Source: Aureimonas flava (GTDB lineage: Bacteria; Pseudomonadota; Alphaproteobacteria; Rhizobiales; Rhizobiaceae). Taken from it: a stretch of DNA of 64,000 bases. Both the position numbers and the translations under genes were made by a program. The stretch is from contig NZ_QYRN01000001.1 in NCBI RefSeq assembly GCF_003583935.1, positions 310,001 through 374,000 of the forward strand. Reading direction: 5' to 3'. The notes beneath the pieces are model-generated. The model made no database searches. It was not told the DNA's origin and worked only from the letters and a program-made list of their open reading frames with translations. Shown in pieces: positions 17,214 to 41,554 of the stretch (within the stretch, counting starts at the first letter, position 1; the number at the start of each line of letters is the position of its first letter).

Positions 17214-17227
17214 TGGCGGAGAGGATG
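17214..17227. repeat. Candidate attL (copy of tRNA-Ser 3' end)
   Basis: TGGCGGAGAGGATG is identical to the last 14 bases of the tRNA-Ser gene at 41465-41478, including the encoded CCA. It lies 145 bases upstream of the integrase start, as expected for the left attachment site. Confidence 0.8.
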
Positions 17228-17371: not shown

Positions 17372-18601
17372 ATGGCACGAGGCGGGAACAAGCTCACCGA
17401 CACGGCGGCGAAGTCGAGCGCGCTCAAGGCCGGCCGGCATTCGGACGGGGGCGGGCTTTACCTGAACGTCTCGGCCTCGGGCTCGAAGTCCTGGCTGTTC
17501 ATGTGGGTGGTGGCCGGCAAGCGCCGTGAGATGGGGCTGGGAGCCTATCCCATGATCGGGTTGGCAAAGGCGCGCAAGCTCGCGAGCGACTGTCGCGATG
17601 CCGTGGCCGAGGGCAGGGACCCGATCGCCGAGAAGAAGGCCGAGGCGCCTAGCGAGCCGACATTCGGGGAATGCGCCGACGACCTTATATCGTCCATGAA
17701 GGGCTCCTGGCGAAATGCCAAGCATCGCGACCAGTGGATGACGACCCTAAGCCGGAAACGCGACGACGACGGCGCCCTCGTCCGCGACGGGTACTGCCTC
17801 AAGCTGATCGACCGGAAGGTGAGCGCAATCGGCACGGACGATGTGCTAGCGGTACTCAAACCGATATGGGCGACCAAGGCCGAGACCGCTTCTCGGCTCC
17901 GCGGTCGGATTGAGCGCGTGCTGGACTATGCTAAGGCCAAGGGCTGGCGAACGGGCGAGAACCCGGCGCTCTGGCGCGGCCATCTCGCCAACATCCTGCC
18001 GGCCCGCCAGAAGCTCCAGCGCGGCCATCATGCGGCGATGCCATACGATCAGGTGCCGGCATTCCTTCAGCAGGTGAGGGGAGCCGAGGCGCTGGCAGCT
18101 CGTGCGCTGGAACTGACGATCCTGACCGCCGCCAGATCCGGAGAAACTTTGAACGCAGTTTGGTCGGAAATCGATCTGGAGCGCGCCGTGTGGACCATCC
18201 CGGCCGGCCGCATGAAGGCTGCGAAGGAGCATCGCGTGCCGTTGGTCCCGCGCGCGGTCGAGATCCTTAAACTGCTGCACGAGGCGAGAACGGGCGACCA
18301 TGTGTTCCCCGGCCAGAAGCCGGGCCGGCCGCTCTCCAACATGGCTATGGAGATGCTGCTTCGGCGCATGAAGGTGGACGTGACGGTTCACGGCTTCCGC
18401 TCGGCGTTCCGCGATTGGGCCGGTGAGGAAACCAGCTTCCCGCGCGAGGTGGCGGAACAAGCCCTGGCGCACACGGTAGGGGATGCGACCGAGCGGGCCT
18501 ATCGACGCGGCGACGCACTGGAGAAGCGCCGGAAGCTCATGGAGGCGTGGGCGTCATATCTGACGCCTGCGCCGGAGGGGGTGGTGAAGCTGCGGGCTTA
18601 G
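17372..18601 (+). CDS. int: P4-type tyrosine recombinase (integrase)
   Basis: 409-residue site-specific recombinase that inserts and removes the element. It has the P4-type N-terminal DUF4102 arm-binding region (GRHSDGGGLYLNVSASGSKSW; GLGAYPMIGLAKAR), a SAM-like core-binding middle, and the catalytic domain with the first Arg in LTAARSGETLNAVW, HGFRSAFRDWA (His-x-x-Arg), and the late His/Tyr region EQALAHTVGDATERAYRRGD. All expected catalytic residues are present, so it should be active. The ATG at 17372 follows a GGAAGG ribosome site; the frame stays open far upstream but without family similarity. It reads away from attL into the element. Confidence 0.95.
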   Translation: MARGGNKLTDTAAKSSALKAGRHSDGGGLYLNVSASGSKSWLFMWVVAGKRREMGLGAYPMIGLAKARKLASDCRDAVAEGRDPIAEKKAEAPSEPTFGECADDLISSMKGSWRNAKHRDQWMTTLSRKRDDDGALVRDGYCLKLIDRKVSAIGTDDVLAVLKPIWATKAETASRLRGRIERVLDYAKAKGWRTGENPALWRGHLANILPARQKLQRGHHAAMPYDQVPAFLQQVRGAEALAARALELTILTAARSGETLNAVWSEIDLERAVWTIPAGRMKAAKEHRVPLVPRAVEILKLLHEARTGDHVFPGQKPGRPLSNMAMEMLLRRMKVDVTVHGFRSAFRDWAGEETSFPREVAEQALAHTVGDATERAYRRGDALEKRRKLMEAWASYLTPAPEGVVKLRA

Positions 18602-19130: not shown

Positions 19131-19784
19131 CTACTCGGCGCTATCGCTGCGATGCCCCCTGGTCACGATCTTGAGCCCGTCGTCCGGTAGCGGGCGCTGG
19201 AGCTTCGTCGCCTCCGACCAGTCCGCCCGCATCCACACGTCGAACTCCTCGGGCTCCGTCAGGATCACGGGCATAGCCTTCGGATGGATCGGCCCGACCA
19301 CACCGTTCGCGTCCGTCGTCAGGAACCCGTAGGCGTCGGTCGTGATCTCGCCCTCGGCCTTCTTCCGGGTCGACGTCCATTCCGTCCAGATGCCGGCGAA
19401 GGCCATTAGGGGGCGGTCCTCGTCGGCCGCGAACCAAACCGGCACCTTCTTCCCATCCACGGTGTCGTACTCGGAGAACGAGGTGAACGGTACGAGGCAG
19501 CGGTGAGCCGGCCCGAGCCAGCGGCGCCAATGCGGGCTCTTCGTGTTCCGCACGTTCGTCACGCCCGGGTCAGTCGTGCGCCCCTTCAGGGCGAACTGTG
19601 GGGACGGCATGCCCCAGCGGGCGAGCTGCAACGTCCGATCGCCGTCTCGCGTGGTGACGATCGGCGCCGCGGCGTCGGGGAAGATGCCCGGCATCGGTGG
19701 GAGGTTGCCCGTCCGGTCCTGCGTTGCACGAGTGAAGGCGACGATTGCGGCCTGGCCCTTTGTGAGCGAATAGAGGTTGCACAT
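19131..19784 (-). CDS. SRAP-family protein (YedK/HMCES-like abasic-site binder)
   Basis: 217-residue SOS-response-associated peptidase family protein. Family members use Cys2, freed by removal of Met1, to form a thiazolidine link with abasic sites in single-stranded DNA and so protect them. Visible are the start MCNLYSLT (Cys2), the Glu in [12 protein letters not shown] and the His in [12 protein letters not shown]; all key residues are kept. The first four residues fix the start. SRAP genes are often carried by phages and mobile elements and may protect replicating DNA. Confidence 0.93.
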
Positions 19785-20432: not shown

Positions 20433-21155
20433 TCACAGCCGTGCGTTAGGAGGCGGGGCTATATTGGCCCAGCGCTCGGCGATCGAGGTGCATGCGGCTT
20501 CCATCGATGCAAATCGCCGCGCGGAGTCCGTTGGCGCTTGGTAGACGACGCCACTGTGGGCGTCGATCGTCAAGCACAGCCCATTCTCTGGTGTCGCATC
20601 CGGGTCATGGGTGGTCCTGGCTAGGTAGCCAAGCAGGAACGCCGACTGCCATTCGCCAACGGCTGGCGGCAGTGGCTTGCGCTTTGCGTACCTAAGCGCA
20701 GCGGCCCCCAGCCGTCGGCGGTTGTTGCGGGTCGTCCGCTCCAGCATCAGATGAAGCTCAACCGTCACGCGCATGCCGCCCACCATTAGCGGCTGCCGAT
20801 CGCCTGGCGGTAGGCGCTCTACGTCGGGCAGCTCAATGGCCGCGCTGACTTCCGCAAAGCGCTCGATATAGTCGGCATTGTGCTGGTTCGTGTCTGCTTC
20901 GAACGGCGTGTCCGCCATTCGGTCTCGCAAGCTCTCCACCTGCTCGCGCAGGTATCCTGCGTCCGCGTCGCCCCGCAGATATCGACCGATGGCCAACTTG
21001 GCGTCGTCGTGCTGTAGAATGCGCGCGACCGGCTGGTACTTGCACGAGCGAACGAGCGTGCGGCGTACCTGTTCGGAAGCCGCCATAAAGTCGGCGAGGG
21101 TGCGCATATTGATTTGCGGGCGCGCAACCTCACGATGCGTGCGCTGATCTGACAC
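20433..21155 (-). CDS. Hypothetical protein
   Basis: 240 residues, largely helical in the first half (TLADFMAASEQVRRTLVR; YLREQVESLRDRMADTP). It reads as a soluble protein without signal peptide or membrane segment. No family is recognised. The reading starts with GTG at 21155; an internal ATG at residue 17 (MRTLADFM) is an alternative. It is divergent from a small gene on the plus strand whose frame begins only two bases away. Confidence 0.5.
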   Translation of the reverse strand: MSDQRTHREVARPQINMRTLADFMAASEQVRRTLVRSCKYQPVARILQHDDAKLAIGRYLRGDADAGYLREQVESLRDRMADTPFEADTNQHNADYIERFAEVSAAIELPDVERLPPGDRQPLMVGGMRVTVELHLMLERTTRNNRRRLGAAALRYAKRKPLPPAVGEWQSAFLLGYLARTTHDPDATPENGLCLTIDAHSGVVYQAPTDSARRFASMEAACTSIAERWANIAPPPNARL

Positions 21156-25386: not shown

Positions 25387-25743
25387 ATGAACGTCCATAT
25401 CCGACCGGCGCATGTCGCCAGTCTGCCCGCCATCCTTCGCGATGTCGCCGTGTCGCCGGCGGTCCTGGCCGAGCCCGAGGCACCGCCGGCCATTGCCCTC
25501 CTGTGCGCCTCGATCGGCAGGACGGCGGCGGACGTGGCGGCGCTCCTCTTCACGTTGCCGATGCCCGAATGCCTTCGCGAGGTGTTCGAGGTCGAGATCC
25601 GACAGGCCATCGTCGCCGAGCTGCTGACCCGGCCGGCGATCGACGACGTGGAGCGCAAGCACATGGAGGACGTCGCGTGGATCGCGTTCGACCGCCGGCT
25701 AGAGCGTCACGAGTGGCGCTGCGCGCTCGGCGGGAAGGCGTGA
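25387..25743 (+). CDS. Hypothetical protein
   Basis: 118 residues, helical, with DVAALLFTLPMPECLREVFEVE and a charged C-terminus RRLERHEWRCALGG. No family recognised. It stands at the start of a second block of rightward genes and is followed after two bases by the next gene. Confidence 0.5.
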   Translation: MNVHIRPAHVASLPAILRDVAVSPAVLAEPEAPPAIALLCASIGRTAADVAALLFTLPMPECLREVFEVEIRQAIVAELLTRPAIDDVERKHMEDVAWIAFDRRLERHEWRCALGGKA

Positions 25744-25745
25744 CC

Positions 25746-26651
25746 ATGCGGCTCGCCTGTGAACAATTGCAGAACGGGATCTCGCCTCGGCTGTCCCGAT
25801 CGCCCTATATTCGAATGGCGCGGGGCCGGCCGGCCAGCCGTCGCATTCCACCACCGCCGGAATGCTTGCCCCGCGTCACCCCTCGGCGGTTGGCGGTGAC
25901 GTGCATGCACGGGAAAGACGCTTTACATCCGGCCATGACCGCGACGCGGTGGACGCTCGGCGAAGCGTTGGCTTGGATCGCAACCCGCCAGCCTGAGGCT
26001 ATCAAGGGCAACGATGGTGCGGCCGACCTTTGCGTCTGGATGGCACTGAACCCCGCCCATCAACCGTACCCGTACCCGGAGCCTTCGGAAGCCTGGGTTG
26101 CGCTGTCGGAGGCGATGGCCTTGGGACTTCATGGCCTCGGAACGTCTGTGCGAATGTTCTGGAATGGCGGGCCGGTTCAACACACGGTCGGCGTTCCGTT
26201 TCCGCCGAAGGAGCAGCTGGGCGCTGCTCTCGACTACGGTGTCTACAGCGAGAGGCCATCCATCATCCGTCCAATCGAAGCGCTAGGTGCGCACAGTTGG
26301 GTGGAGATCCACGACCTTTCCTTCTGGCGAGCAGACATCATGGCGTGGTTTCCCGCGCTTAGTATGCCCGTGTCGAGAGCCGAAATCGTGGGCGATGCGG
26401 GGCGTGGCACGGATGCTCGTCCGCTGAGAGCTGGCCGGCGGCGGGGTGCACCATCGCTCGCAAACGCAGATGAGGACGCGCTTAGCCGCATGCGGCTGCT
26501 GTTCGTTTCCGGCGGTGACATGAACGTCACGAAGGCCGCGAGTATCGTTGTGGCAGAGGGTGGCGTTGCTGGCGACGGCACCGACGAGAGCAAAGCGAAG
26601 CGCCTTGAACGCCGGTATCGCTCCGCATTTCCCGCTGGCCCTATTGGGTAG
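25746..26651 (+). CDS. Hypothetical phage-type protein
   Basis: 301 residues from the ATG at 25746, which has a GGGAAGG ribosome site and follows the previous stop by two bases. The first 63 residues are Arg/Pro-rich and not protein-like, while typical sequence starts at MTATRWTLGEALAWIATRQP (ATG at 25935), so the shorter form of 238 residues is a real alternative. Proteins with TLGEALAWIAxR near the start are common in alphaproteobacterial prophages, but their function is unknown to me. The C-terminus KAKRLERRYR is basic. Confidence 0.5.
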   Translation: MRLACEQLQNGISPRLSRSPYIRMARGRPASRRIPPPPECLPRVTPRRLAVTCMHGKDALHPAMTATRWTLGEALAWIATRQPEAIKGNDGAADLCVWMALNPAHQPYPYPEPSEAWVALSEAMALGLHGLGTSVRMFWNGGPVQHTVGVPFPPKEQLGAALDYGVYSERPSIIRPIEALGAHSWVEIHDLSFWRADIMAWFPALSMPVSRAEIVGDAGRGTDARPLRAGRRRGAPSLANADEDALSRMRLLFVSGGDMNVTKAASIVVAEGGVAGDGTDESKAKRLERRYRSAFPAGPIG

Positions 26652-27500: not shown

Positions 27501-27709
27501 ACCCGGCGCCCGATCATTCCGACGCCATCGCGGCAGCCGCGTTCGCGCGCTACGCCGAAGCTTCGACGCGTTTCCAGCAGACGCACCGCCCGGCCGACGC
27601 CGCAGCCGCACGCCGCGCCTATCGCGGGTTTGTCGAGGCTTTCCTGACGCCCGCCGAGCAAGCCGGGCTTGCGGCGGCCGGCGTGCCCGGTCTCGGGAGG
27701 CGCGCATGA
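27497..27709 (+). CDS. Small Ala-rich helical protein
   Basis: 70 residues, Ala/Arg-rich and helical (AAAAFARYAEASTRF; FVEAFLTPAEQAGL). Start and stop both overlap neighbouring genes by four bases (ATGA), so it is part of the replication operon. Function unknown. Confidence 0.5.
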   Translation: MNPAPDHSDAIAAAAFARYAEASTRFQQTHRPADAAAARRAYRGFVEAFLTPAEQAGLAAAGVPGLGRRA

Positions 27710-29139
27710 GTGTCGATCCGAACGGCGAGGGCTTCATTCCCGAACTGGAGCAGTCCCTTCTTGGGGCTCTCCTCCTCGGCCAAGGACTTGCTCGCGTGCG
27801 CCCCATCGTGCGCGCCGAACACTTCGTGGAGCCGATTCATCAGGACATCTTCGGCGCCATCTGTGACGCGCACGAGCGCTCCGGCTCGCACGGCGTGCCG
27901 CTCGTCGCCAAGCTGATCCCCGAGCGCGTCCACATGGCGCTCAAGCTGCGCACCGACATGAACGTGCTGGGCTACCTGTCTCGGATGGCGGCCGATACGG
28001 TGCATGGCGGTTCGCTGATCGAGAAGGCAGCGAAGGCCGTCGTCGAGCAGTGGGCGCGTCTCAACGTGGCGGTTCATTGCGAGCAGATTGCCATCGCAGC
28101 GCGCGACCCAGCCGCCGACCCGTCCATCCTCGGCCGACAGATCGGATCGGCCGTGGAGGGCGTCCTGTCCGACGTGCGCGGCTCCGGCGTCCGGCGCTCG
28201 CGCTTCTCCATCGGGCAGGCGGCCGAGGCGGCCATCGCGTCGGCTCGGGCGGCCAAGGAACAGGGGCACGGCCTCACCGGCCTGTCATGGGGCCTGACGG
28301 ACGTAAACCGCCTCACGGGCGGCATGCAGCGCAAGGATCTGATCCTCGTCGGCGCCCGGCCTTCCATGGGTAAGACGTCGCTCTTGATCTCGTCGGCGCT
28401 CGCTACGGCCCGCGCCGGCCACGGCATCGGCATCCTGTCCATGGAGATGGACGCCGAGAAGCTGACGGCGCGTGCCCTATCGGACCTGTCGTTCAACGGA
28501 CACGTCCAGGTGCCCTATGCCAGCATCATCAGGGGCCAGCTCGACGACGGACAATTCGCCGCGGTGGAGGAGATGGGGCGCCGCCTTGACCAGTTGCCCA
28601 TCGCGATCGACGAGGCGTCGGGCACGACCTTCGACATCCGCGTGAAGATCGAGACCATGATGGAGCAGTTCGAGCGCGCCGGCTGGCCGCGCCTCGAATG
28701 CCTGATGGTGGATCACCTGGGCTTCGTGCAGCCCTCGGCTCACTACCGCGGCAACCGCAACAATGAGGTGGGCGAGATCACGCGGGCGCTCAAAGGCTAT
28801 GCCAAGGAATACGGCCTCGCCATCGTGCTCCTGTCGCAGCTCTCGCGCCAGCTCACCCAGCGCGACGACAAGCGTCCCCAGCTCTCCGACCTTCGGGATA
28901 GCGGCAACATCGAACAGGACGCTGATGTCGTCGTGTTCCTGCATCGCGAGGCCTACTACCTCGATCGGGAACGAGCGACCGGCGACCGCGAGACCGAACG
29001 CGTCGAGAAGCTGGCGGCCTGCCAGCACCAGCTCGAATTCATCATCGCCAAGCAGCGCAACGGACCCGTCACGACGGTGGACCTGTTCTGCGACATGGCG
29101 TTTTCGGCCGTCAGAAACGGCGATCGGAGGTCGCTTTGA
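27706..29139 (+). CDS. DnaB-like replicative helicase of the element
   Basis: 477-residue hexameric DNA helicase. The N-terminal domain starts with PELEQSLLGALLLGQ, the ATPase domain holds the Walker A GARPSMGKTSL near residue 220, the Walker B MVDHLGFVQ, and the C-terminal DLRDSGNIEQDADVVVFLHR and FIIAKQRNGPV. All motifs are kept, so it should be active. It is distinct from the chromosomal DnaB at 51941-53425 and would be loaded at the element's own origin. The gene lies inside a run of four-base start/stop overlaps with the replication protein gene. Confidence 0.93.
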   Translation: MSVDPNGEGFIPELEQSLLGALLLGQGLARVRPIVRAEHFVEPIHQDIFGAICDAHERSGSHGVPLVAKLIPERVHMALKLRTDMNVLGYLSRMAADTVHGGSLIEKAAKAVVEQWARLNVAVHCEQIAIAARDPAADPSILGRQIGSAVEGVLSDVRGSGVRRSRFSIGQAAEAAIASARAAKEQGHGLTGLSWGLTDVNRLTGGMQRKDLILVGARPSMGKTSLLISSALATARAGHGIGILSMEMDAEKLTARALSDLSFNGHVQVPYASIIRGQLDDGQFAAVEEMGRRLDQLPIAIDEASGTTFDIRVKIETMMEQFERAGWPRLECLMVDHLGFVQPSAHYRGNRNNEVGEITRALKGYAKEYGLAIVLLSQLSRQLTQRDDKRPQLSDLRDSGNIEQDADVVVFLHREAYYLDRERATGDRETERVEKLAACQHQLEFIIAKQRNGPVTTVDLFCDMAFSAVRNGDRRSL

Positions 29140-30026
29140 GCCGCCAACCTTGGATGAAATTCTTCCCCGCCGACTGGCAGTCTGACGTGCTGCTTCGGTC
29201 CTGTTCCATCGCCGCGCGGGGCCTCTGGATCGAGCTTCTATGCATCATGCAGAAGGCCGAACCGGTGGGGCATCTGCTGGTCAACGGCAAGGCTCCGGCG
29301 CCCTCGCTGCTGGCAGTCCTGTGCGGCACTTCCGAGAAGGAAATCAGGCGTTTGCTCGACGAGCTGCGGGAGGCCGGCGTGTTCGACGAGGCTGACGGGG
29401 TTATCGTCAGCCGCCGCATGGTGCGGGACGCGGAGAAGGCCGAGAGGGATAAGACCAACGGCAAGAAGGGCGGCAACCCGGCGGTTAAGGCGGGGGTTAA
29501 CCCCCCGGTTAAGCCTTCGGTTGAGGGGGGGATAAACCCCATATTCCAGAAGCCAGAAGCCAGAAGCCAGAAGAATACTCTTGGTGCATCCGCACCGATT
29601 GAGCCGGCTGCGCCGGACCCGTTCGAGGTGTTCTGGAGGCTCTATCCGAAGCGCGATGGCTCAAATCCGAAGAAGCCAGCGAAGGAGAAGTTCGAGAAGC
29701 TAGTGAAGGCTGGCGCCGATCCCGAACAGATCACCGCCGCGGCCATCCGCCTCGCAGCTAAACATCCGAAGCCGACGCCCTACGTGCCGCAGGCTCTCAA
29801 ATGGCTTGGCCAGGAGAGGTTCAACGACGACGACACCAGCGCGACGATCCACGCCCTGGTCGGCGACGAGCAATGGAGCAAGCGCCTCGCCTATGCTCGT
29901 CGTGAGCGTCAGTGGGCCAGGATCGAATGGGGCCCAATGCCCGGCGAACATGGGTGCCGTGTTCCCACACACCTCCTCCAGCCCGATGACGGCCAAGGTT
30001 GGACAGCTCAGAAGGAGGCTGCGTGA
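29136..30026 (+). CDS. Phage replication initiator/helicase-loader-like protein
   Basis: 296 residues. The N-terminus (QPWMKFFPADWQSD; GTSEKEIRRLLDELREAGVF) is a winged-helix region of the DUF1376/DnaD-like kind seen in phage replication proteins. A repetitive linker follows, and the C-terminus (PFEVFWRLYPKRDG; TPYVPQALKWLGQERF) is the usual DnaA-interacting or loader-like tail of such proteins. The start is TTG at 29136, supported by GGAGG at 29126-29130 and by the four-base overlap with the helicase gene. The linker DNA holds iteron-like and heptamer repeats. Confidence 0.7.
   Translation: MSRQPWMKFFPADWQSDVLLRSCSIAARGLWIELLCIMQKAEPVGHLLVNGKAPAPSLLAVLCGTSEKEIRRLLDELREAGVFDEADGVIVSRRMVRDAEKAERDKTNGKKGGNPAVKAGVNPPVKPSVEGGINPIFQKPEARSQKNTLGASAPIEPAAPDPFEVFWRLYPKRDGSNPKKPAKEKFEKLVKAGADPEQITAAAIRLAAKHPKPTPYVPQALKWLGQERFNDDDTSATIHALVGDEQWSKRLAYARRERQWARIEWGPMPGEHGCRVPTHLLQPDDGQGWTAQKEAA
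29483..29573. repeat. Iteron-like 12-base repeats and heptamer array in the replication gene
   Basis: GGTTAA recurs at 29483, 29495 and 29507 and as GGTTGA at 29519, an exact 12-base period; the second copy lies in the perfect palindrome GGGGGTTAACCCCC (29492-29505). Directly after come four perfect copies of CCAGAAG (29546-29573). This is a candidate origin inside the initiator gene, as in lambda gene O. Confidence 0.5.
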
Positions 30027-30309: not shown

Positions 30310-31623
30310 TCAGTTTAATCCCTCGTCGGCGGGATGTTCAACTACATATTGCTCCAAATTATTTCGACTGAGGATCGCTGATATCTCGGTGGAGGGTATT
30401 TTCTTTGCAGCGTAGCAAGCTGCGATGAAGTCTGTGTAGCCTCCACTACCAATCAAGTCGGATACACCGTCGTCCGCGGATTTCGCGATTTTCTCAAGAT
30501 CCTCCGCTGTTATGAATTGGGAAAACTTCACCATAAATAACGATGAATAACTGTTCGTGCTCGCCCAGCTTCGGGAACTGGCGAATAAAGTTACAGCTCT
30601 CTCGACGACTTCGCGAGCAGGATCGGATATAAGATTTCCCAATTCTTCTGCTGATAGCTTGCTTACTTCAAGCCTCGCTTCAGTTTTCAAATAAGATACT
30701 AGCAACGCCTTATTGAGAAGGTTTGGCCGCTCGACGAGCTTTTCATCCTGGATCAGAGCTTTGAGTGTGGAATGATCTTCTGGTGGAACTTTCTCGCCAA
30801 TATCTAAGCTTCTCACCAAGATTGCAGCGGCGAAACGGATCGAATCTTTTTCGGTTCGCCGAAGTAGTTTGATGCAGTTTGCCAAAACGCGCGGCGCTGC
30901 TTCCCGTCGGTCCATTTCGAGAATGGCCAGCACAGATCTGACGACGGAATTCTTTTTGTAAAATCCACTCGCCTTATCAGGCCACCCGAACATTAGGGTG
31001 TCAACGATAGACCTTATGAGTGCGGGCCTCGCGTTTTTAAGCTCAGTTCCGCTAAGTCTTGACACCGCATCTTTAATTGTCTCGGGAAAATACGTTGACA
31101 GGATTACGGCGCCCACAGCGTCGACGGCAGCTTTACCGTGTCGCGGCGGCTGTGTCAGAACAAGATTTAGCGCGTTCACGATATGTAAGCGCGCCAGTTC
31201 TGCGTTCGGCGCGTATGGAAGCGATGAATTGAGATAGGTTGGGTGCGCGCATCTATGCCGATCAGAACGCAGCCTGTTCATTTCCTCGAATTCGCTCTTC
31301 CCGAAGAAGCCGAATTTGTCTCTGAAGGTTTCCAGCAAGCCTCGCTCAAAATCTAGCAGCTTCCTGAGCGCTTCGGTTTGCCCTTTCTCAAGGGCGTCTT
31401 GCCGATTTTCTAGCTTCTTGATCTCCTCCCCCGCCTCTTTGTCTCCTATCGCCGATAAAGAGCGTAGTTTCTCAATGAGATCAAAGCATACAGCTATATA
31501 TGTAGTAACAATTGCCGCTCTATACGCGCCGCTTTCATAGCATTTGATAGCTTCTGCAATATGTGATTTAGAGCTGTCATTTGTGCATCTAGAAGTAAGT
31601 TCGTCGAAACTCGCAATCATCAC
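30310..31623 (-). CDS. Large HEPN-like protein of unknown function, candidate defence gene
   Basis: 437 residues, read against the surrounding rightward genes and clearly AT-richer (bases 30481-30540 hold 22 G/C of 60), so separately acquired. The N-terminal region (about 20-150) is all helical (AEAIKCYESGAYRAAIVTTY) and carries RHRCAH at 122-127, matching the R-x4-6-H motif of HEPN ribonucleases, preceded by NRLRSD. The rest is a helical array without motifs I recognise. HEPN proteins in phage elements often act in abortive infection. It lies five bases from the replication operon end and in the place where head genes would be expected. The role is inferred. Confidence 0.6.
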   Translation of the reverse strand: MMIASFDELTSRCTNDSSKSHIAEAIKCYESGAYRAAIVTTYIAVCFDLIEKLRSLSAIGDKEAGEEIKKLENRQDALEKGQTEALRKLLDFERGLLETFRDKFGFFGKSEFEEMNRLRSDRHRCAHPTYLNSSLPYAPNAELARLHIVNALNLVLTQPPRHGKAAVDAVGAVILSTYFPETIKDAVSRLSGTELKNARPALIRSIVDTLMFGWPDKASGFYKKNSVVRSVLAILEMDRREAAPRVLANCIKLLRRTEKDSIRFAAAILVRSLDIGEKVPPEDHSTLKALIQDEKLVERPNLLNKALLVSYLKTEARLEVSKLSAEELGNLISDPAREVVERAVTLFASSRSWASTNSYSSLFMVKFSQFITAEDLEKIAKSADDGVSDLIGSGGYTDFIAACYAAKKIPSTEISAILSRNNLEQYVVEHPADEGLN

Positions 31624-31733: not shown

Positions 31734-31970
31734 GTGTCCCGAACAGTCCCGCTGTTTCTAAGCGGTGCAAAGGTCGAAGAAGGCTTCCGCTCGGCCTTAT
31801 TCGATGCAGCTAACCGCGCCGGTATCACCCCCAACGAGTTCGCCATCGTCGCCGCCGCCGAGAAGTTGGCGCGCTGCGGGCGCACCTTCCCCGGCATCTT
31901 CCGCAAAGGCGATTTCGAGATGGTCGGCTTCAATCCCGCGCAGGGCACGCAGGTTGGGGGTGCTGTCTGA
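31734..31970 (+). CDS. Small hypothetical protein ahead of virion genes
   Basis: 78 residues from GTG at 31734, preceded by AGGAG eight bases upstream; the frame is open further back but without a ribosome site. The sequence FRSALFDAANRAGITPNEFAI is helical and HTH-like without being decisive. Its stop overlaps the next start (TGATG). Confidence 0.55.
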   Translation: MSRTVPLFLSGAKVEEGFRSALFDAANRAGITPNEFAIVAAAEKLARCGRTFPGIFRKGDFEMVGFNPAQGTQVGGAV

Positions 31971-34381
31971 TGGCGCTCCCCCAGTTCATCTTCGGTGGCG
32001 ACACGGGCATGACGCCCGCGCAGTTGAAGAAAAACCGCGCCATCGCCGAAGCTCTCAGGGAAGGCGCATCCCGCGCCCCTCGCAACGTCGGCGAGGGCAT
32101 CTCAGCCATCGGGCAGGCGCTCGCCTACCGGATCCGCGAGGGGCAGAATGACAAGGCCGAGAAGGCGCTCGGCGAGAAGCAGCGTGAGATTTCGGGCACG
32201 CTCGGCCAAGAGTATGCGGCGGCTCTCGCTGGTGGCGGTTCGGACTTCGGCGCGGGCGCTGGTTTCGGTTCGGCCACCGGCCCCATTGGCGACGCCTCGA
32301 CGGCCATCCCTGCGGGCGAGCGCGCCACCTACATCCGCTCCGGTCTCGTGTCGCGCGGACTGCCCGAGCATGTCGCGGACGGCTTCCTCGCGAATTTCGA
32401 AGATGAGAGCGGCCTTGATCCTGGCATCAACGAGCGCAACCCGACCGTGCCCGGCTCGCGTGGTGGCTTCGGGCTGTATCAGCTCACCGGCCCCCGTCGC
32501 GACGCATACGAGGGCTTTGCCGCCAGCCGTGGCGTCGATCCCTCGGACATCGACACGCAGTTGGACTTCATGGTCGGCGAGCTGGGCGTCGGTGAGGGGG
32601 CGAAGGAAGCGCCGTGGTACGGGTCGGAAGGCAAGGCCGCGCGCAGCATCATGGCCGCGCCCGACACGGCCGGCGCCGCTCAGGCCATCGTGAACAACTT
32701 CCTGCGGCCGGCGCCCGAGCACCGGTCCTCACGGGCGGCGAAGTATGCCCGTCTCGCGGGCGCGGCGGCTCCGGTTCAGGTCGCTTCGCTCGACCGGGCC
32801 GCCGGTATGTCGTCCGTGCCAGAGTTCGGGGCCGAGGACGTCGCGGCGCTCGAGGCGCGCCCGAAAGACCCTCGCGCAGTGCCGTACCAGGGCCCCGGAG
32901 CGACGATCGACCCGCGCGACGTGGAGCGGTTCCAGCCCGGAAACGTGCTCGCTGCGCCGGGCTCGATGTCGCCCGAGGATCAGCGGCTCTATGACGAGCG
33001 CATTCGCGGGCGCGGTGCCCAACCGGACCCGGCCGGAACCGTTCCGTATGCCGGCCCCGGTGCCCGCATCGACGACCCGAACGCTATGCAGGGTGGCAGG
33101 CAGCCGCCGCAGCGCGCGGACCCGCCCGGCACGAAGAACATGGCAGTCGCGCGCGCGCTCGGCATCCAACCGCAGCCGTTCACCCCTCCATCCATGTCGG
33201 CCGTTGCCTCCGCGCTCAATGGCCGGCCGGTGCCCACGCCGACGCCGCGCCCCGAACAGATGGCCGATGCGCAGCCCGGCGCCGATCCGTCGCAGGGCGG
33301 CGACCCGTGGGCCGGAATGCGCCCGCAGGACATCGCGCGGCAGAGCGGCGCGCTTCAGGTGGCGCAGGCCAACGCGAGCCAGCCGTCGCCCTTCGACGTC
33401 GCGCGCGCCAACGGCCAGACCATCGAGACCGACGCCCCGACGTACATGGGCCGGTCGGTCGATACCTTTGACCCGCAAGTCCTCATCGGCGTGTTGCAAA
33501 ACGAGTATGCCAGCCCCGACCAGAAGGCCATGGCGCAGGACATTCTCCAGTTGCAGATGAGGCGCCAGCAGACGACCCAGGCGCAGCAGTACGACATGCG
33601 CAAGACGCTGGAGGGCCGGGCCTATGAGGAACAGAAGGCCGCCCGCGAGCGCGCCGCCGGGAACGAGGACTATCTGACCCGGAAGAAAATCGACCTCCAG
33701 TTTCAGAAGCCCGAGGGCGTCGATTGGCAGGAGCTGCCCAACGGCGACTATGGGTATTTCGACCCGCAGAAGCGCCAGTTCACCAAGCTCGGCAACGCGC
33801 CCAAGCCTGCCTCTAGCGGGATAACGATCGGGCCGGATGGGACGGTTCAGATCGGCGGCGGCCCGAAGCTACCGGCCAACTTCATGCCGGACCCGGAAAA
33901 CCCTGGTGCCGTGAAGCCCATCCCCGGCGGCCCTGGCGAACAGCTTCCGGCCGAACTGGCGGGCCGCATCGCCATCGCCGATAGCTTCCTGGGGCAGGCC
34001 GGCGCTCTTCGCGAGCAGCTTGCAGCCGGCGGCGCAACCGGCCTGCTCGATCGCTTCCAGGCAGGAAACAACGCATCGAGCGATCAGGCCGGGATCTATC
34101 GGCAGCTCCAATCCGGTGCCGACGCGCTTCAGCGCCTCCTCACTGGCGCCGGCATGACGGAGAGCGAAGCCGCGATCTACGCCGGCCGCTATCTGCCGGG
34201 TTACACGGACAGCGCCGAGAGCGCGGTCGCGAAGCTCGACCAGATGACGCGCGAAATCGAGAACGCCCGCGCCGCCGCCCTGCGTGGGCGAGGCGGCATC
34301 GGTGCGGACGTCACGCCCAATGGGGCCAATGCGCCCAAGGGTGCCGCCGCCGACTACAAGACGAAATACGGGCTGGAGTGA
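31970..34381 (+). CDS. Phage internal virion protein with tail-lysozyme-like domain
   Basis: 803 residues. Residues about 121-245 (RSGLVSRGLPEHVADGFLAN; FEDESGLDPGINERNP; GGFGLYQLTGPRRDAYE) match the phage tail lysozyme (transglycosylase-like) domain, with the probable catalytic Glu in NFEDESG. The remainder is Pro/Ala-rich linker (repeated PYQGPGATIDP and PYAGPGARIDD motifs) and a helical C-terminus. Such proteins are ejected by podovirus-like particles to breach the peptidoglycan. Residues 20-54 share 20 of 35 positions with the small protein at 37940-38194. It is followed directly by another large virion-type gene. Confidence 0.75.
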   Translation: MALPQFIFGGDTGMTPAQLKKNRAIAEALREGASRAPRNVGEGISAIGQALAYRIREGQNDKAEKALGEKQREISGTLGQEYAAALAGGGSDFGAGAGFGSATGPIGDASTAIPAGERATYIRSGLVSRGLPEHVADGFLANFEDESGLDPGINERNPTVPGSRGGFGLYQLTGPRRDAYEGFAASRGVDPSDIDTQLDFMVGELGVGEGAKEAPWYGSEGKAARSIMAAPDTAGAAQAIVNNFLRPAPEHRSSRAAKYARLAGAAAPVQVASLDRAAGMSSVPEFGAEDVAALEARPKDPRAVPYQGPGATIDPRDVERFQPGNVLAAPGSMSPEDQRLYDERIRGRGAQPDPAGTVPYAGPGARIDDPNAMQGGRQPPQRADPPGTKNMAVARALGIQPQPFTPPSMSAVASALNGRPVPTPTPRPEQMADAQPGADPSQGGDPWAGMRPQDIARQSGALQVAQANASQPSPFDVARANGQTIETDAPTYMGRSVDTFDPQVLIGVLQNEYASPDQKAMAQDILQLQMRRQQTTQAQQYDMRKTLEGRAYEEQKAARERAAGNEDYLTRKKIDLQFQKPEGVDWQELPNGDYGYFDPQKRQFTKLGNAPKPASSGITIGPDGTVQIGGGPKLPANFMPDPENPGAVKPIPGGPGEQLPAELAGRIAIADSFLGQAGALREQLAAGGATGLLDRFQAGNNASSDQAGIYRQLQSGADALQRLLTGAGMTESEAAIYAGRYLPGYTDSAESAVAKLDQMTREIENARAAALRGRGGIGADVTPNGANAPKGAAADYKTKYGLE

Positions 34382-34387
34382 ACGACG

Positions 34388-37300
34388 ATGGCGGACCTCG
34401 ACCTCGCCCGCGTGAAGCGCAACGTCGCCAAGATGGCAGGCATGAATGCCCCCATGGAGGACATCGACGGCTATATCGCATCGGAGGGCACGACCGTTGA
34501 CGCGGTGCGCGCCTTCAGGCACGGCGCCACATCCCAGCCCGGCCAGTTCGCCGGCCCGGCCATGAACGCCACGGCCGGCATGAACGAAGCGATCTATGGG
34601 ACGCTCGGTGCCCCGGTGGATCTGATGCGCGGCGGCATGAACCTCGCGGTTCGCGGCTTCAATGCCGTGACGGGTTCCGAAGTGCCGACGATCCCCGAGA
34701 ACAGTTTCGGCGGGTCGCGATCCATCGGCGAGGCCATGGGCAGCATTCGGCCCGAGCTCGACCCCACGAACACCGTGGCGGCTGATGCCGGCGACCGCGT
34801 GGCCCGTGGCGTCGGCCAAGGCGTCGCGGGGACGGTCCTGCCGGCCGCCATTGTCGGCGGCGCCGCGCGGGCTGGCGCGATCGGACCCCAGGCGGCCGAG
34901 ATGGGCGCACAGGTCTTCGGGCGGTCGAACAGCGTCCGCAACGTCGGCGCCGAGGCATTGACGGGCGCGGCGGCCGGCGCTGGGTCCGCGACCGCCGCCG
35001 AGTTCACGCCCGAGCAGTATCGCAGCATTGGCAGCTTCGCGGGCGGCCTTGCTGGTGGCGGCATCGGCGCGGCTCTCACCGGCATTCCTGCGCTTGTGCG
35101 GCAGGGTGCCAGCGCCGCCGGCCGCTATCTCGAGCCCTTCACCGAGGGCGGGCGCGAGCGGATGGCGGGTCGCGCCTTGCGTAATGGCGCGACCGATCCG
35201 CAGGCTGCGATTGACGCTATCGAGACGGCGCCTCGCGACCTCGTGCCTGGCTCGCAGCCGACGACGTTCCAGTTGACCGGCGACATGGGCCTGGGTGCGA
35301 TGGAGCGCGGATCGCAGGCGCGATACCCCGCCGAATTCGGGCAGCGCCGCGCCGACCAGAACCAAGCCCGTGTCACCGCCCTTGAGGGCATCCAGCCCGG
35401 CGGCGCCCCGGAGAAGGTGGCGCAATCCGTCCGATCTTTCCTCCAGCAGATCGAGGACGAGGCCGAGGCAACGGTGGGCGCCGCGACCGAGCGGGCACGA
35501 ACTGGCGCGACCGGCCTCGGTGTGGGAGCGCAGGCGGACGAGGCGGGCGCGGCCATGCGTGCGAACCTCGAAAGCGCCCGCGCCGCCGCCAAGGCCCGCG
35601 AGAACGCCCTGTATGCCGCCGTCGATCCCAGCGGCACGATGACGCTCGGCCTGGCGAACACCCGGAAGAGCGCGCAGGGCATCGCTGAGGAAATGTCCCC
35701 CTTGGCGCAGCCGCTCAGCGAGACCGAGCGCCAGATCTATGGGGCCATCGGGCAGGCGGGAGAGGCCGTGCCGCTCCGCGCGATGCGAGACCTTCAATCG
35801 AACCTGAAGGCGGCCATGCGCGCCGAACGCTCGACAAACGGCGAGAGCCCTGCCTATCGTCGCCTGTCGATCGTCTCGGCCGGCATCGCGAAAGACTTTG
35901 ACGACGCGGTGGCTGGGAAGGTCGCACAAGAGGCGCAGGCAGTGGCGCGCGGCGAGATCCGCGCCGAAGATACGATCGAAGCTGCAATGCTTCGACAGCG
36001 TGAGGAATGGGTTGCAGGACGACAGGCAACAGCAGGCACCCAAGCCCGAGCGTCTGGGGCTGATAGTGCAGCGGGTTTTGGAGCCCCTGGACTTGGCCGA
36101 TCGACCTCTGTTCCTTCAGCACTTGGAGGCCAAGGCCAAGCAGGAGGGCGACTTCCAGACCCTTCGGGCGATCCGCGACTACAGGTCGATGGCGCAGCCA
36201 CATTCGACGGAGCCGCCCAAGAGCGCTTGAGGGCTGCGAACGCTGCCACGCGCGAGCGTGCCGAGACCTTCGACAATCCGCTTCTCGCCCCGCTCCGCCG
36301 CAAGTCCGCTACCGAGCTTCCGAACGCCACCGTTGCGCGCCGCATCTTCTCGGGGTCGTCTGAAAGCTTCGAAGCCGTTCAGACCTTCCGCCGCGCGGTC
36401 GGCGATGCGGAGGCGACTGCGACCCTCACGCCATACGCAGTGGGGCAGGCCCGTCGCGCCGCGCTGAACGAAGACGGCACGTTCGACCCGGCGAAGCTCG
36501 ACCGATGGCGCCGGCAGCACGCCGACGCCTTGCGCGCGATGCCCGAGCTCGGCACGCGCCTCGGCGACGTCAACCGGCTGTCCGACACCCTGGCCGAGAC
36601 GGTCGCGACCGAGCGTCAGAGGGTGGAAACGGCGCAGAAGGGCGCGCTCGGCCGCTTCATCGGCAACGAGAACCCCGACGAAGTGTCGAAGACGATCGGC
36701 GGCCTTCTCACCCGGCAGGACGGCGCCCGCCAGCTCGCCGAGATCCGCCGTGCGATCGGCAACGATCCCGAGGCGCTAGAGGGCCTGCGCAAGGCGGCGG
36801 CCGACTTCATCACGGGCCGGCTGATCGGGAACACGGAGGTCGGCACGTCCGGCCAGGCTGGCATCCGCGTCGAGCAATATCAGAACTTCATCCGTCAGAA
36901 CGCGGAGGCGCTTCGGACCATCTTCTCGGATGCCGAGATCCTGTCCATGGAGGGCATCGCCGCCGATATGCAGCGCGCCGGTCGGTCCATCTCGGCCGTG
37001 AAGACCCCCGGAACGCCCGGCACCGCGCAAGACCTCATGGCGGCGCAGGGCGATGACAGCCCCGTGTCGATCCTGGCGAAGATTGTCGGCGCCTCTGCAA
37101 CGACGGGCGGCAGCGTCACGGCGGTCGGCGGCCCGGTCGCCGGCACCATCGCAGGCGTCGGCACGCTGTTTGGCGCTGCCCTGCGCGAGAACGGCATCCG
37201 CCGCGTCGAGGACTTGGTGAAGGACGCGCTTCTCAATCCCGATCGCGCGGCGGCGCTGATGAGCGGCGTACGGCCCAGTAAGCCCGAGCGCGAGACCGCC

Positions 37301-37561
37301 ATCGCACGGCGCTACCGCGCTTCCGTCGCGGCGTCTGGTGCGATGGCTTTGCCGGGAGACGATGAGGACGCGCCGCCGCCTCGCAGCGAGCGCCGATCCA
37401 GTCTGACCCGCGAAATGCGGATCATGGCAGCCTTGCAGGGGCAGGCGCCAACGGCCCGTAGCGAGACGGTCGCGGAAGCTCTGTTGGCCGGGCGTCGGCG
37501 GTCGCCGGCCGAACCCGCAACCCCCAACGCGGTGGCGCGCGCTCTGCGGGCGAGGGCATAG
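34388..37561 (+). CDS. Large phage internal virion (ejection) protein
   Basis: 1057 residues, Ala/Gly-rich, largely helical, with two glycine-rich hydrophobic stretches (about 130-180 and 225-250; e.g. GSFAGGLAGGGIGAALTG) and another near the end (GGPVAGTIAGVGTLFGAAL) that could insert into the host membrane. This is the usual look of large internal or ejection proteins of podoviruses. Order and strand (six bases after the lysozyme-type gene) support this. A Gly/Ser-rich linker at about residues 545-620 overlaps a second open frame. No enzyme motif is seen. Confidence 0.65.
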   Translation: MADLDLARVKRNVAKMAGMNAPMEDIDGYIASEGTTVDAVRAFRHGATSQPGQFAGPAMNATAGMNEAIYGTLGAPVDLMRGGMNLAVRGFNAVTGSEVPTIPENSFGGSRSIGEAMGSIRPELDPTNTVAADAGDRVARGVGQGVAGTVLPAAIVGGAARAGAIGPQAAEMGAQVFGRSNSVRNVGAEALTGAAAGAGSATAAEFTPEQYRSIGSFAGGLAGGGIGAALTGIPALVRQGASAAGRYLEPFTEGGRERMAGRALRNGATDPQAAIDAIETAPRDLVPGSQPTTFQLTGDMGLGAMERGSQARYPAEFGQRRADQNQARVTALEGIQPGGAPEKVAQSVRSFLQQIEDEAEATVGAATERARTGATGLGVGAQADEAGAAMRANLESARAAAKARENALYAAVDPSGTMTLGLANTRKSAQGIAEEMSPLAQPLSETERQIYGAIGQAGEAVPLRAMRDLQSNLKAAMRAERSTNGESPAYRRLSIVSAGIAKDFDDAVAGKVAQEAQAVARGEIRAEDTIEAAMLRQREEWVAGRQATAGTQARASGADSAAGFGAPGLGRSTSVPSALGGQGQAGGRLPDPSGDPRLQVDGAATFDGAAQERLRAANAATRERAETFDNPLLAPLRRKSATELPNATVARRIFSGSSESFEAVQTFRRAVGDAEATATLTPYAVGQARRAALNEDGTFDPAKLDRWRRQHADALRAMPELGTRLGDVNRLSDTLAETVATERQRVETAQKGALGRFIGNENPDEVSKTIGGLLTRQDGARQLAEIRRAIGNDPEALEGLRKAAADFITGRLIGNTEVGTSGQAGIRVEQYQNFIRQNAEALRTIFSDAEILSMEGIAADMQRAGRSISAVKTPGTPGTAQDLMAAQGDDSPVSILAKIVGASATTGGSVTAVGGPVAGTIAGVGTLFGAALRENGIRRVEDLVKDALLNPDRAAALMSGVRPSKPERETAIARRYRASVAASGAMALPGDDEDAPPPRSERRSSLTREMRIMAALQGQAPTARSETVAEALLAGRRRSPAEPATPNAVARALRARA

Positions 37562-37939: not shown

Positions 37940-38194
37940 ATGAGCTTCATTTTCGACGCGAACGAGACGCCCGAGCAGGCCGCCAAGCGCCGGCAGATAG
38001 GCATGGACGCCCTCCGGGCTGGTGCAACTCGCCAGCCCCAAAACATGGGCGAGGGCATGTCCGCCGTGGCCCAGGCTCTTGCCTATCGATCGATGCAGAA
38101 CAGCCAAGCCAAGGCCGCCGCCGATCCGTGGTCGAGCATGCGCCAGCCAGCCGGCGCGGGGTTCTTCGCCCGCCTCGGCGGCATGTTTCGATAG
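37940..38194 (+). CDS. Small protein sharing a motif with the lysozyme-type virion protein
   Basis: 84 residues. Residues 16-50 match residues 20-54 of the 803-residue virion protein at 20 of 35 positions, centred on NMGEGMSAVAQALAYR versus NVGEGISAIGQALAYR. The shared piece may be a docking or packaging segment of virion components. It has a GGGAG ribosome site. Confidence 0.55.
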   Translation: MSFIFDANETPEQAAKRRQIGMDALRAGATRQPQNMGEGMSAVAQALAYRSMQNSQAKAAADPWSSMRQPAGAGFFARLGGMFR

Positions 38195-39179: not shown

Positions 39180-40436
39180 ATGGACACGCTTGTCGCCCAC
39201 AACCAACGGGCCGCCGAGGCTCGCGATATGCTGGCCCACATCTTTGCCCGTCATGACCGCGTGTTCCTCGCCTTCTCGGGCGGCAAGGAAAGCCTCGCCC
39301 TCGCTCGCCTCTGCGATCCATGGGCCGGACGCTTCCGCCTCCTTTGGGCCAACACGGGGTACGCCTTCCCGCACGTCGAGGCACTGATCCGCTCCTATGG
39401 CGAGCGCTACGGGCTTGACGAAAGGCGGTCGGACCTCATCGCCAACTGGAAGGCGAACGGCTTGCCGTCGAACGTCGTGCCGATCCCGAACGCCCTCGGC
39501 GGCGGCCTGCATGCGGAGCCGAAGCTCCAGGCGTGGCCCGCCTGCTGCGGCGCGCTGCGCTCGGCGCCGATGCTGGATATGCTCCAGGCCGAGACGGCGC
39601 CCGTGGCAGTGATCCACGGCCAGCGGCATGAGGACCGGACGCCAGGTCTCGGGATGTCGGGGTGGCCCGTGCCCGAATGCGTCGAGGTCGTCGCGCCGCT
39701 CGCGGACTGGAGCAGGGCCGACGTCCTGGCGTTCCTCGAGCATGAAGGCGTGGACCTTCCGGCGCACTATGCTGACGTCCCCGATAGCCTCGACTGCTGG
39801 CTCTGCCCGTCCGCGTTCGGCGAGGCGAAGGGGCCGGCCCGAGCGGCCTACATGCGCAAAGCCTATCCCGAAATGCTCGAGGTGGTAATGCCGGGCGTGC
39901 GGCGGACCCGTGAAGCCGTCGCGGCCGTGGTCGGCACCATCGGCATGTCGGTCGAGAGCGCCCAGCCCCCGCGGGACGAGCTGCGCCCCGTCGCCCAGCA
40001 TCCCGATCGGCTGGGGGATTGCGTCATTGCCGCGCTGGCGACGATCCTCGGCCGCACCTATCCCGAGACGGCAACGCTCCTCGGCTTTCCCTGCGATCCT
40101 GCGACCGGGCACCCTGTCGGCCTGCACAAGGCCGGCGTGCCTATCACCATGCTCGCCGCCCCGCTTCTCGCCGCCGGCATCCCGTCCACGATCATCGTCT
40201 CAGATGAGTTCGCCGCGCGCGTCGGCGATGTGCCCGGCGTCGGGCTCGCTCGGGACCGGCTGCACCAGATGCTTCGCGGCCGGCGTGCGGTGGTGATGAT
40301 CGAAGAGCGCCACGATGACGGCTTCGAGATGCACGCGCTCGGCTGGGTTGGCGATCGGCTATACGACTGCCGACCGCCGGCACCGAACGAGCGCCCGATC
40401 GATGGGGTAGAGATCCTGGCCGCCGTTGTCATGTGA
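39180..40436 (+). CDS. APS/PAPS-reductase-type domain fused to a probable cysteine-peptidase domain
   Basis: 418 residues. Residues about 20-250 form an adenine-nucleotide alpha-hydrolase (PAPS reductase) domain: PPi loop FSGGKES at 32-38, Cys-Cys at 122-123 (PACCGALRSAPM) and Cys-x-x-Cys at 206-209 (DCWLCPSAF). The CC...CxxC set is that which binds a [4Fe-4S] cluster in assimilatory APS reductases. Residues about 270-418 look like a C39/papain-like peptidase: HPDRLGDCVIAALATILGRT with Cys281 and EMHALGWVGDRLYDC with His385. The start at 39180 (ATG) is three bases after the previous stop. Roles in nucleotide or DNA modification, or in processing of a virion protein, are possible; nothing decides. 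Confidence 0.7.
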   Translation: MDTLVAHNQRAAEARDMLAHIFARHDRVFLAFSGGKESLALARLCDPWAGRFRLLWANTGYAFPHVEALIRSYGERYGLDERRSDLIANWKANGLPSNVVPIPNALGGGLHAEPKLQAWPACCGALRSAPMLDMLQAETAPVAVIHGQRHEDRTPGLGMSGWPVPECVEVVAPLADWSRADVLAFLEHEGVDLPAHYADVPDSLDCWLCPSAFGEAKGPARAAYMRKAYPEMLEVVMPGVRRTREAVAAVVGTIGMSVESAQPPRDELRPVAQHPDRLGDCVIAALATILGRTYPETATLLGFPCDPATGHPVGLHKAGVPITMLAAPLLAAGIPSTIIVSDEFAARVGDVPGVGLARDRLHQMLRGRRAVVMIEERHDDGFEMHALGWVGDRLYDCRPPAPNERPIDGVEILAAVVM

Positions 40437-41411: not shown

Positions 41412-41464
41412 ATCACAAGCCAGCTCGTATTAATCAATGAGAACAGAGGCTTGGCACGAAGTCG

Positions 41465-41478
41465 TGGCGGAGAGGATG
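41465..41478. repeat. Candidate attR at the 3' end of tRNA-Ser
   Basis: TGGCGGAGAGGATG, the CCA end, discriminator and acceptor strand of the tRNA read on the plus strand, identical to 17214-17227. Confidence 0.8.
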
Positions 41479-41554
41479 GGATTCGAACCCACGATACCGT
41501 TCCCGGTATACTCCCTTAGCAGGGGAGCGCCTTCGACCACTCGGCCACCTCTCC
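41465..41554 (-). tRNA. tRNA-Ser (anticodon GCT)
   Basis: 90 bases including an encoded CCA. Read on the minus strand it has the acceptor stem GGAGAGG/CCTCTCC, the D-arm GGCCGAGTGG, the anticodon stem-loop CTCCC-CTGCTAA-GGGAG with anticodon GCT, a long variable arm typical of class II tRNA (TATACCGGGAACGGTATC) and the T-arm GGGTTCGAATCCC. Its 3' end is the integration target of the neighbouring element and remains intact. Confidence 0.97.

Follow-up and report, generated by a model that had tools for sequence, protein, structure and literature searches.

A PAPS-reductase-like domain fused to a probable papain-like peptidase in a satellite-like element of Aureimonas flava

Introduction

What might a protein do that carries, in one chain, a domain resembling PAPS and APS reductases and a second domain resembling cysteine peptidases? 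The question is raised by a gene, here called P0001, in a stretch of 64,000 nucleotides from Aureimonas flava, the whole of which is referred to as the window. Our searches of the open-licence literature found no description of a PAPS-reductase-like/peptidase fusion, and no paper combining 'phosphoadenosine phosphosulfate reductase', C39 and phage. Two papers assign phage 'PAPS reductases' to sulfur metabolism (PMC9144972, PMC2920897), and the former treats the homologue of phage JC1 as a moron gene likely acting in sulfate reduction (PMC9144972).

Results and Discussion

Integrity and distribution of the fusion gene

39180–40436, + strand: fusion gene (P0001), 418 aa, ATG-initiated single frame, with a 43% homologue over the full length

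The frame at 39180–40433 (with the stop codon, to 40436) runs for 418 codons from its ATG without interruption, and its pattern of GC by codon position is that of the neighbouring genes, in the N- and C-terminal halves alike. The host genome holds a single full copy of this DNA, the sole further match being of 36 bases. A protein encoded on contig MKRJ01000004.1, from another genus, aligned with P0001 from end to end (43% identity, 417 columns), which excludes a frame error as the source of the fusion, a danger that the first-pass annotation had raised. On this sequence evidence, the fusion is genuine, one gene with two domains, and the single 418-residue protein of that annotation stands; the residue positions that it gave (SGGKES at 33–38, C122–C123, C206 and C209, C281, and H385) are all correct in the sequence.

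Matches to the C-terminal domain (C-domain) were obtained in five of the 394 family genomes sampled, corresponding to two fusions, two standalone copies and one spurious match. The credible C-domain loci therefore number four: P0001, its homologue on MKRJ01000004.1 (MKRJ), and the standalone copies G076 and G260. The search for the same domain pair elsewhere, which had been proposed with the initial description, thus yielded a second fusion, and P0001 and MKRJ are the two known among the genomes searched. A scan of genome contigs returned the MKRJ contig alone, but the query consisted of two peptide patterns, so this result is no proof of rarity. Searches across the class (385 genomes) and the order (377 genomes) found the C-domain in the own genome only. 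Scans of viral contigs, whether with full-length P0001, the C-domain or alignments of either, returned no relative, and tblastn of the C-domain against phages gave no match, or E values of 0.7–0.8 at best. Two search matches were dropped as spurious: L021, a chromosomal locus at which the open reading frames of the other strand look by eye like a toxin-antitoxin pair, and L112, on the opposite strand of an apparent recG (also by eye).

The ATG of the fusion lies 2 bases after the stop of the preceding gene in the window. It follows the preceding stop directly (0 bases) in the MKRJ element, where the next gene is again immediate. This tight spacing in both elements suggests co-translation with late-type genes.

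The N-terminal domain and its relationship to CysH

39180–39935, + strand: N-terminal domain (N-domain), PPi-loop/PAPS-reductase-like, phrog_424 (PF01507, phrog_424, Foldseek)
39276–39293, + strand: PPi loop SGGKES (residues 33–38); S33, G34, G35 and K36 invariant in 29/29 rows
39543–39548, + strand: Cys122-Cys123, putative cluster ligands, invariant in 29/29 rows
39795–39806, + strand: Cys206-x-x-Cys209, putative cluster ligands, invariant in 29/29 rows

Pfam family PF01507 matched residues 28–211 (E 5e-11; score 43.4 bits, cut-off 22.5), and phrog_424, named 'phosphoadenosine phosphosulfate reductase', matched residues 20–253 (E 3.1e-23). In a Foldseek search with the model of the full protein (29 sequences, mean pLDDT 85.4, pTM 0.68), the APS/PAPS reductases 4bwv and 2goy came first, with E values of about 1e-7, and TtuA thiolases were close behind. 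In APS reductases, the CC and CxxC motifs bind the cluster. The four corresponding cysteines are the invariant ones listed above, and the proposal of an APS-reductase-like N-domain with four cysteines is well borne out.

In CysH, the cysteine of the ECGLH (more generally ECG[IL]H) tail motif is the catalytic residue. All nine cellular CysH loci examined (one from the own genome, six from the genus, one from the family and one from the order) carry ECGLH after CC and CxxC, so the host has a CysH of its own with all three motifs. This tail motif is absent from P0001, and CG[ILV]H occurred in none of the best 80 of 330 viral relatives. The column of the catalytic cysteine contains Cys in 4/4 CysH sequences and in 0/25 phage-type rows (P0001, its homologue, three plasmid proteins, one named phage record and 19 viral contigs), the residue in P0001 being Met. 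An assignment of the N-domain to ordinary CysH was rejected, because the tail motif and the cysteine of this column are both missing. A cysteine elsewhere in the tail was found in 43 of the 75 complete viral relatives from these best 80, in 37 of the 43 at 46 residues behind CxxC, so that another thiol could serve in them; P0001 has no Cys between C209 and C281. These sequence features place the N-domain in a viral family that is separate from CysH.

In the tree, the two fusion N-domains formed one clade (support 0.975), and the next branch was a Methylobacterium plasmid protein (0.935). This protein, from plasmid pMt-1, is the nearest standalone relative in the tree and is not encoded beside virion genes.

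The viral family and its genomic slot

A scan of viral contigs with a seven-sequence alignment returned 330 relatives, the best 80 of which were kept for analysis. CC and CxxC lay at a fitting distance in 79 of these 80, and the sole exception, L039, was read as an 88-aa fragment. In all 75 complete relatives from this set, no more than 53 residues follow CxxC and none has the C-domain, so that in this comparison the C-terminal extension is peculiar to the fusion.

In the Lessievirus phages, the N-domain gene sits between virion-structure genes. Upstream neighbours were scanned at 28 loci and matched phrog_6121 in 16, phrog_8003 in five and phrog_17319 in two, all of which are annotated as 'virion structural protein'; four of the 28 matched an acyltransferase family. 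A profile of the virion neighbour matched the gene directly upstream in 70 of the 75 viral loci with at least 700 bases upstream, a descriptive figure, as the profile was built from 22 neighbours of the same loci, many of them close relatives. Of the five misses, three (L037, L038 and L050) have a chosen start that overruns the upstream gene; the other two are L040 and the fragment L039. The gene preceding the fusion in the window is terminase-small-like rather than of the phrog_6121/8003 virion type that occupies the usual viral slot.

In a profile search of 29 family members, with E values of up to 10 accepted, BrxP was matched by 28/29, SspD by 26/29 and DndC by 6/29, the best E values among the members being 4e-11, 1.1e-12 and 1.6e-4, respectively. 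P0001 itself matched BrxP only, and weakly (E 8e-4).

A Comamonas plasmid protein (L133:5452–6714) carries a PAPS-reductase-like domain behind a part annotated as a methyltransferase; a Pfam scan of this protein found no methyltransferase. Its gene occupies a similar slot, preceded by a GNAT gene and one for a hypothetical protein.

The C-terminal domain

39960–40433, + strand: C-domain, probable papain-like cysteine peptidase fold (Foldseek; phrog_31365)
39996–39998, + strand: Gln273, putative oxyanion-hole residue, invariant 4/4
40020–40022, + strand: Cys281, putative nucleophile, invariant 4/4, at the N-terminus of helix 281–290
40332–40334, + strand: His385, putative catalytic residue, invariant 4/4, in strand 381–391
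40365–40367, + strand: Asp396, putative third catalytic residue, invariant 4/4, at the end of strand 393–396

A Pfam search with the C-domain of P0001 (residues ~270–418) identified no family, and the four members together yielded only Peptidase_C23 (E 0.11) and CcmH (E 0.13), in one member each. All four matched phrog_31365, to which no function is assigned (E 7.8e-5 for P0001), and a PDB search with the C-domain profile returned nothing useful. The copies of MKRJ, G076 and G260 are 38%, 35% and 30% identical to that of P0001, and Gln273, Cys281, His385 and Asp396 are among 27 columns invariant in the four homologues.

A separate model of the C-domain (2 sequences) had a mean pLDDT of 78.4 and a pTM of 0.76. 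Its best PDB matches in Foldseek were staphopain C (E 0.011, probability 0.97) and staphopain (E 0.024, probability 0.96), with query TM scores of 0.47 and 0.50; no PDB match reached E ≤0.001. The best viral model was part of a 'Morphogenesis protein 1 wall, phi29, hydrolase' (E 1.2e-3). Papains have a characteristic order of secondary-structure elements, and the order predicted in the model of the full protein, a helix at C281 followed by the strands of H385 and D396, fits it. Confidence in that model was lowest at residues 261–280 (blocks of 60 and 56), where a linker is expected. The C-domain probably has, on the basis of its own model, a papain-like cysteine peptidase fold. The first-pass annotation had proposed a C39/papain-like domain: the papain-like part agrees with the staphopain matches and the four invariant residues, but family C39 was rejected at the sequence level, since no C39 profile matched in Pfam. 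The structure prediction that it had called for thus points to the staphopains, although no PDB match was as good as E 0.001.

The element around the gene

The fusion gene lies in an element of 24.25 kb (window positions 17214–41478) at a tRNA-Ser(gct) gene, with the following features:

17214–17227, no strand: attL-like 14-bp direct repeat, probable left end; exact repeat, 158 bases before the integrase
17372–18601, + strand: tyrosine integrase (phrog_1, E 4.9e-48; 48% to the integrase of the MKRJ element)
27706–29139, + strand: DnaB-like helicase (phrog_19, E 2.4e-79)
29136–30026, + strand: replication initiation protein (phrog_270, E 3.4e-24)
31970–34381, + strand: internal-virion/ejection-type protein of 803 aa with a phage tail lysozyme domain (PF18013, E 7.3e-21), its role deduced
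34388–37561, + strand: second large late-type protein, 1057 aa, its role deduced from position; 44.6% to a 1040-aa protein of G012:C8
38725–39177, + strand: terminase-small-subunit-like gene, tentative (phrog_641, E 1.4e-4, residues 30–71, a weak match)
41465–41478, no strand: attR-like repeat, the 3' end of tRNA-Ser(gct), right boundary; homology to relatives begins here

Relatives become homologous to the window from 41465 onwards in G004 and G002, and one base earlier, from 41464, in G009; in G007, homology already covers the first base (41451) of the query that was used. None of these four relatives had a match to element DNA beside tRNA-Ser. The right end is firm, given this start of homology at 41464/41465 and the lack of element DNA in the relatives. 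The left end is probably at 17214, as judged from the repeat: an empty site sought from the left flank was not found, homology in four relatives stopping between 16,706 and 16,821, and no tRNA-Ser was seen in the left-flank stretches read. The tRNA-Ser(gct) gene itself lies at 41465–41554 (- strand), and an apparent different integrase adjoins it in G002 (L176); this gene may be a repeated integration site.

The 803-aa protein also matches phrog_24864 (E 6.2e-58) and the terminase-small-like protein phrog_15261 (E 1.1e-11), both without an assigned function, and the 1057-aa protein had no PHROG or Pfam match. An 84-aa gene at 37940–38194 (+ strand) resembles the N-terminus of the 803-aa protein, and a 59% relative of it lies near a similar large gene in G019:C105. 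Two further genes are on the opposite strand. The product of 19131–19784 is an SRAP (SOS response associated peptidase) protein (PF02586, E 2.8e-27). The gene at 30310–31623 is PD-T7-3-like (PADLOC E 1.1e-24, residues 1–163); GC content there is about 52%, lower than in the remainder of the element, and the gene is probably anti-phage cargo. PADLOC detected no Dnd, Ssp or BREX partner among eight other element proteins.

No capsid, portal or large terminase gene was recognised in the element, as judged from PHROG scans of 19 element proteins, few long open reading frames being left over; those without an assignment are 34388–37561, 25503–26651 and 20433–21155. In the host genome (G000), the portal profile phrog_156 had no match and the large-terminase profile phrog_2 had one, on another contig (C21); phrog_156 matched in only one of seven genomes, and both profiles also miss the by-eye terminase and portal of G019:C105. 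The element is phage-like, as suspected earlier, and from its gene content we read it as satellite-like, with a putative dependence on a helper.

Related elements

On a 28 kb contig from the same genus (G012:C8), which has a gene that looks ParA-like by eye, the gene order is preserved: the two large genes have counterparts at 40% and 44.6%, and the terminase-like gene has one at 52%. The contig is without the fusion gene, which is thus dispensable for this late module. Portal and large-terminase profiles had no match on this contig, the matches of that genome being on contig C1.

The standalone C-domain genes of G076 and G260 lie beside large late-type or terminase-small-like genes (roles partly assigned by eye). 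No phrog_2 match was found near the C-domain gene of G076, and the nearest in G260 begins about 19 kb beyond the integrase. The MKRJ element (G174:C4), unlike that of the window, has a large-terminase match; its contig ends at 12,889 bases. We read these elements, with that of the window, as a satellite-like family with a putative dependence on helpers. At G019:C105, the capsid, portal and terminase roles assigned by eye obtained no confirmation in Pfam and PDB sequence searches, and this locus was not used as proof.

Possible function of the fusion protein

The explanation that we tentatively favour is that P0001 is a late bifunctional enzyme, combining an ATP-dependent sulfur/redox modifier with a cysteine protease, that serves in DNA delivery or takeover. 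Judging from its position, it would be made late, at the same time as the ejection-type proteins. ATP and a 4Fe-4S cluster are the probable ligands of the N-domain, and its probable reaction is the insertion of sulfur into nucleic acid or a small molecule, or a redox change of either, rather than APS reduction, by analogy with SspD/DndC/TtuA-type enzymes. Sulfur chemistry on nucleic acid would be the likeliest N-domain reaction, given the similarity of the family to the BrxP, SspD and DndC profiles. The C-domain would probably be catalytically active, as a thiol protease or amidase with a protein of the virion, the helper phage or the host as its target, and together the two domains may condition incoming DNA or the cell during delivery of the satellite-like element. 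We prefer a late role in nucleic-acid handling or delivery over one in metabolism because the CysH thiol motif is missing and both halves have late-gene neighbourhoods in separate elements.

An auxiliary metabolic CysH, with the N-domain reducing PAPS/APS for host or infection sulfide and the peptidase incidental, would agree with the names of the Pfam and PHROG families and with the sulfate-reduction proposal that the JC1 authors make for their phage homologue (PMC9144972), but we consider it very unlikely, since the tail motif found in 9/9 cellular loci is lacking in P0001 and in all of the best 80 of 330 viral relatives, and the host already has a CysH that carries CC, CxxC and ECGLH. The altered host sulphur metabolism suggested at the outset is unlikely on the same grounds. 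The other two suggestions made then, modification of DNA in the manner of DndC and processing of a protein, may still apply. A role in counter-defence or self-protection, in which the N-domain makes, removes or mimics a phosphorothioate-like DNA mark and the peptidase destroys a host defence protein, is unlikely but less remote: it draws on the matches of the family to BrxP (28/29), SspD (26/29) and DndC (6/29) at E values of up to 10, and on the PD-T7-3-like defence gene in the same element, but P0001's own match is to BrxP only, and the eight other element proteins scanned with PADLOC include no Dnd, Ssp or BREX partner.

Two further alternatives, both somewhat less probable than counter-defence, concern the balance between the domains. 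The weak similarity of the C-domain to known peptidases would be explained if it were a non-catalytic papain-fold module acting as a protein-binding tether for the N-domain; this we regard as improbable, because the glutamine, cysteine, histidine and aspartate are all kept in the four homologues even though the other three are only 30–38% identical to the C-domain of P0001. Conversely, the protein might act chiefly as a peptidase that processes ejection or head proteins, its viral N-domain having been added through a chance deletion. The C-domain does occur alone in two of the four credible loci, beside late-type or terminase-small-like genes; however, the N-domain signature residues are kept in both fusions, which suggests that this domain is still selected, and we find this course of events equally doubtful.

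Returning to the bifunctional enzyme, a bolder proposal, which we offer as no better than a doubtful conjecture, is that of a satellite-like family in Rhizobiales with its own ejection proteins and a terminase-small-like protein instead of capsid genes; its two-headed enzyme, pairing an ATP-dependent 4Fe-4S modifier of nucleic acid with a papain-like protease, would be made together with the ejection proteins, and might be delivered alongside them, so that the satellite DNA is secured on entry. We found no paper in the open-licence literature combining 'phage satellite' with 'internal virion protein'.

Two points had not been noticed earlier: the N-domain is one of a widespread family of viral proteins, encoded as a rule behind a virion gene, and capsid genes are not recognisable in the element. 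That all of the best 80 of 330 viral relatives lack the CysH motif, together with this usual slot, argues that the sulfur-metabolism reading is wrong for the viral family. The natural fusion to a peptidase provides a handle on the function of these viral PAPS-reductase-like proteins, and the surrounding element may represent a type of satellite equipped with ejection proteins of its own.

Comparison with known systems

P0001 has the PPi-loop fold and the CC..CxxC set in common with assimilatory [4Fe-4S] APS reductases of the CysH type, but it is without their ECG[IL]H catalytic cysteine and has an extra papain-like domain. The phrog_424 genes of the Lessievirus phages BcepIL02 (gp67) and JC1 (gp65), both from Burkholderia, are 31% and 30% identical to the P0001 domain, have the same four cysteines and are located beside virion genes; their products, in contrast, are standalone proteins of about 240 aa. 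The BrxP, SspD and DndC proteins of phosphorothioate systems are similar in profile to the viral family, but P0001 itself scores weakly, and partner genes of these systems are absent from the eight element proteins scanned. Papain-fold proteases, such as staphopain and the phage cell-wall/morphogenesis hydrolase model, resemble the C-domain in predicted fold and in the order Gln-Cys-His-Asp, but the C-domain, of about 158 residues, has no sequence family match.

Phage satellites (PICI and others) offer a set of features with which the element as a whole can be compared. As in these satellites, there is an integrase, replication genes, a terminase-small-like gene and a tRNA att site with no recognisable capsid genes; the window element differs from them in carrying large ejection-type proteins of its own.
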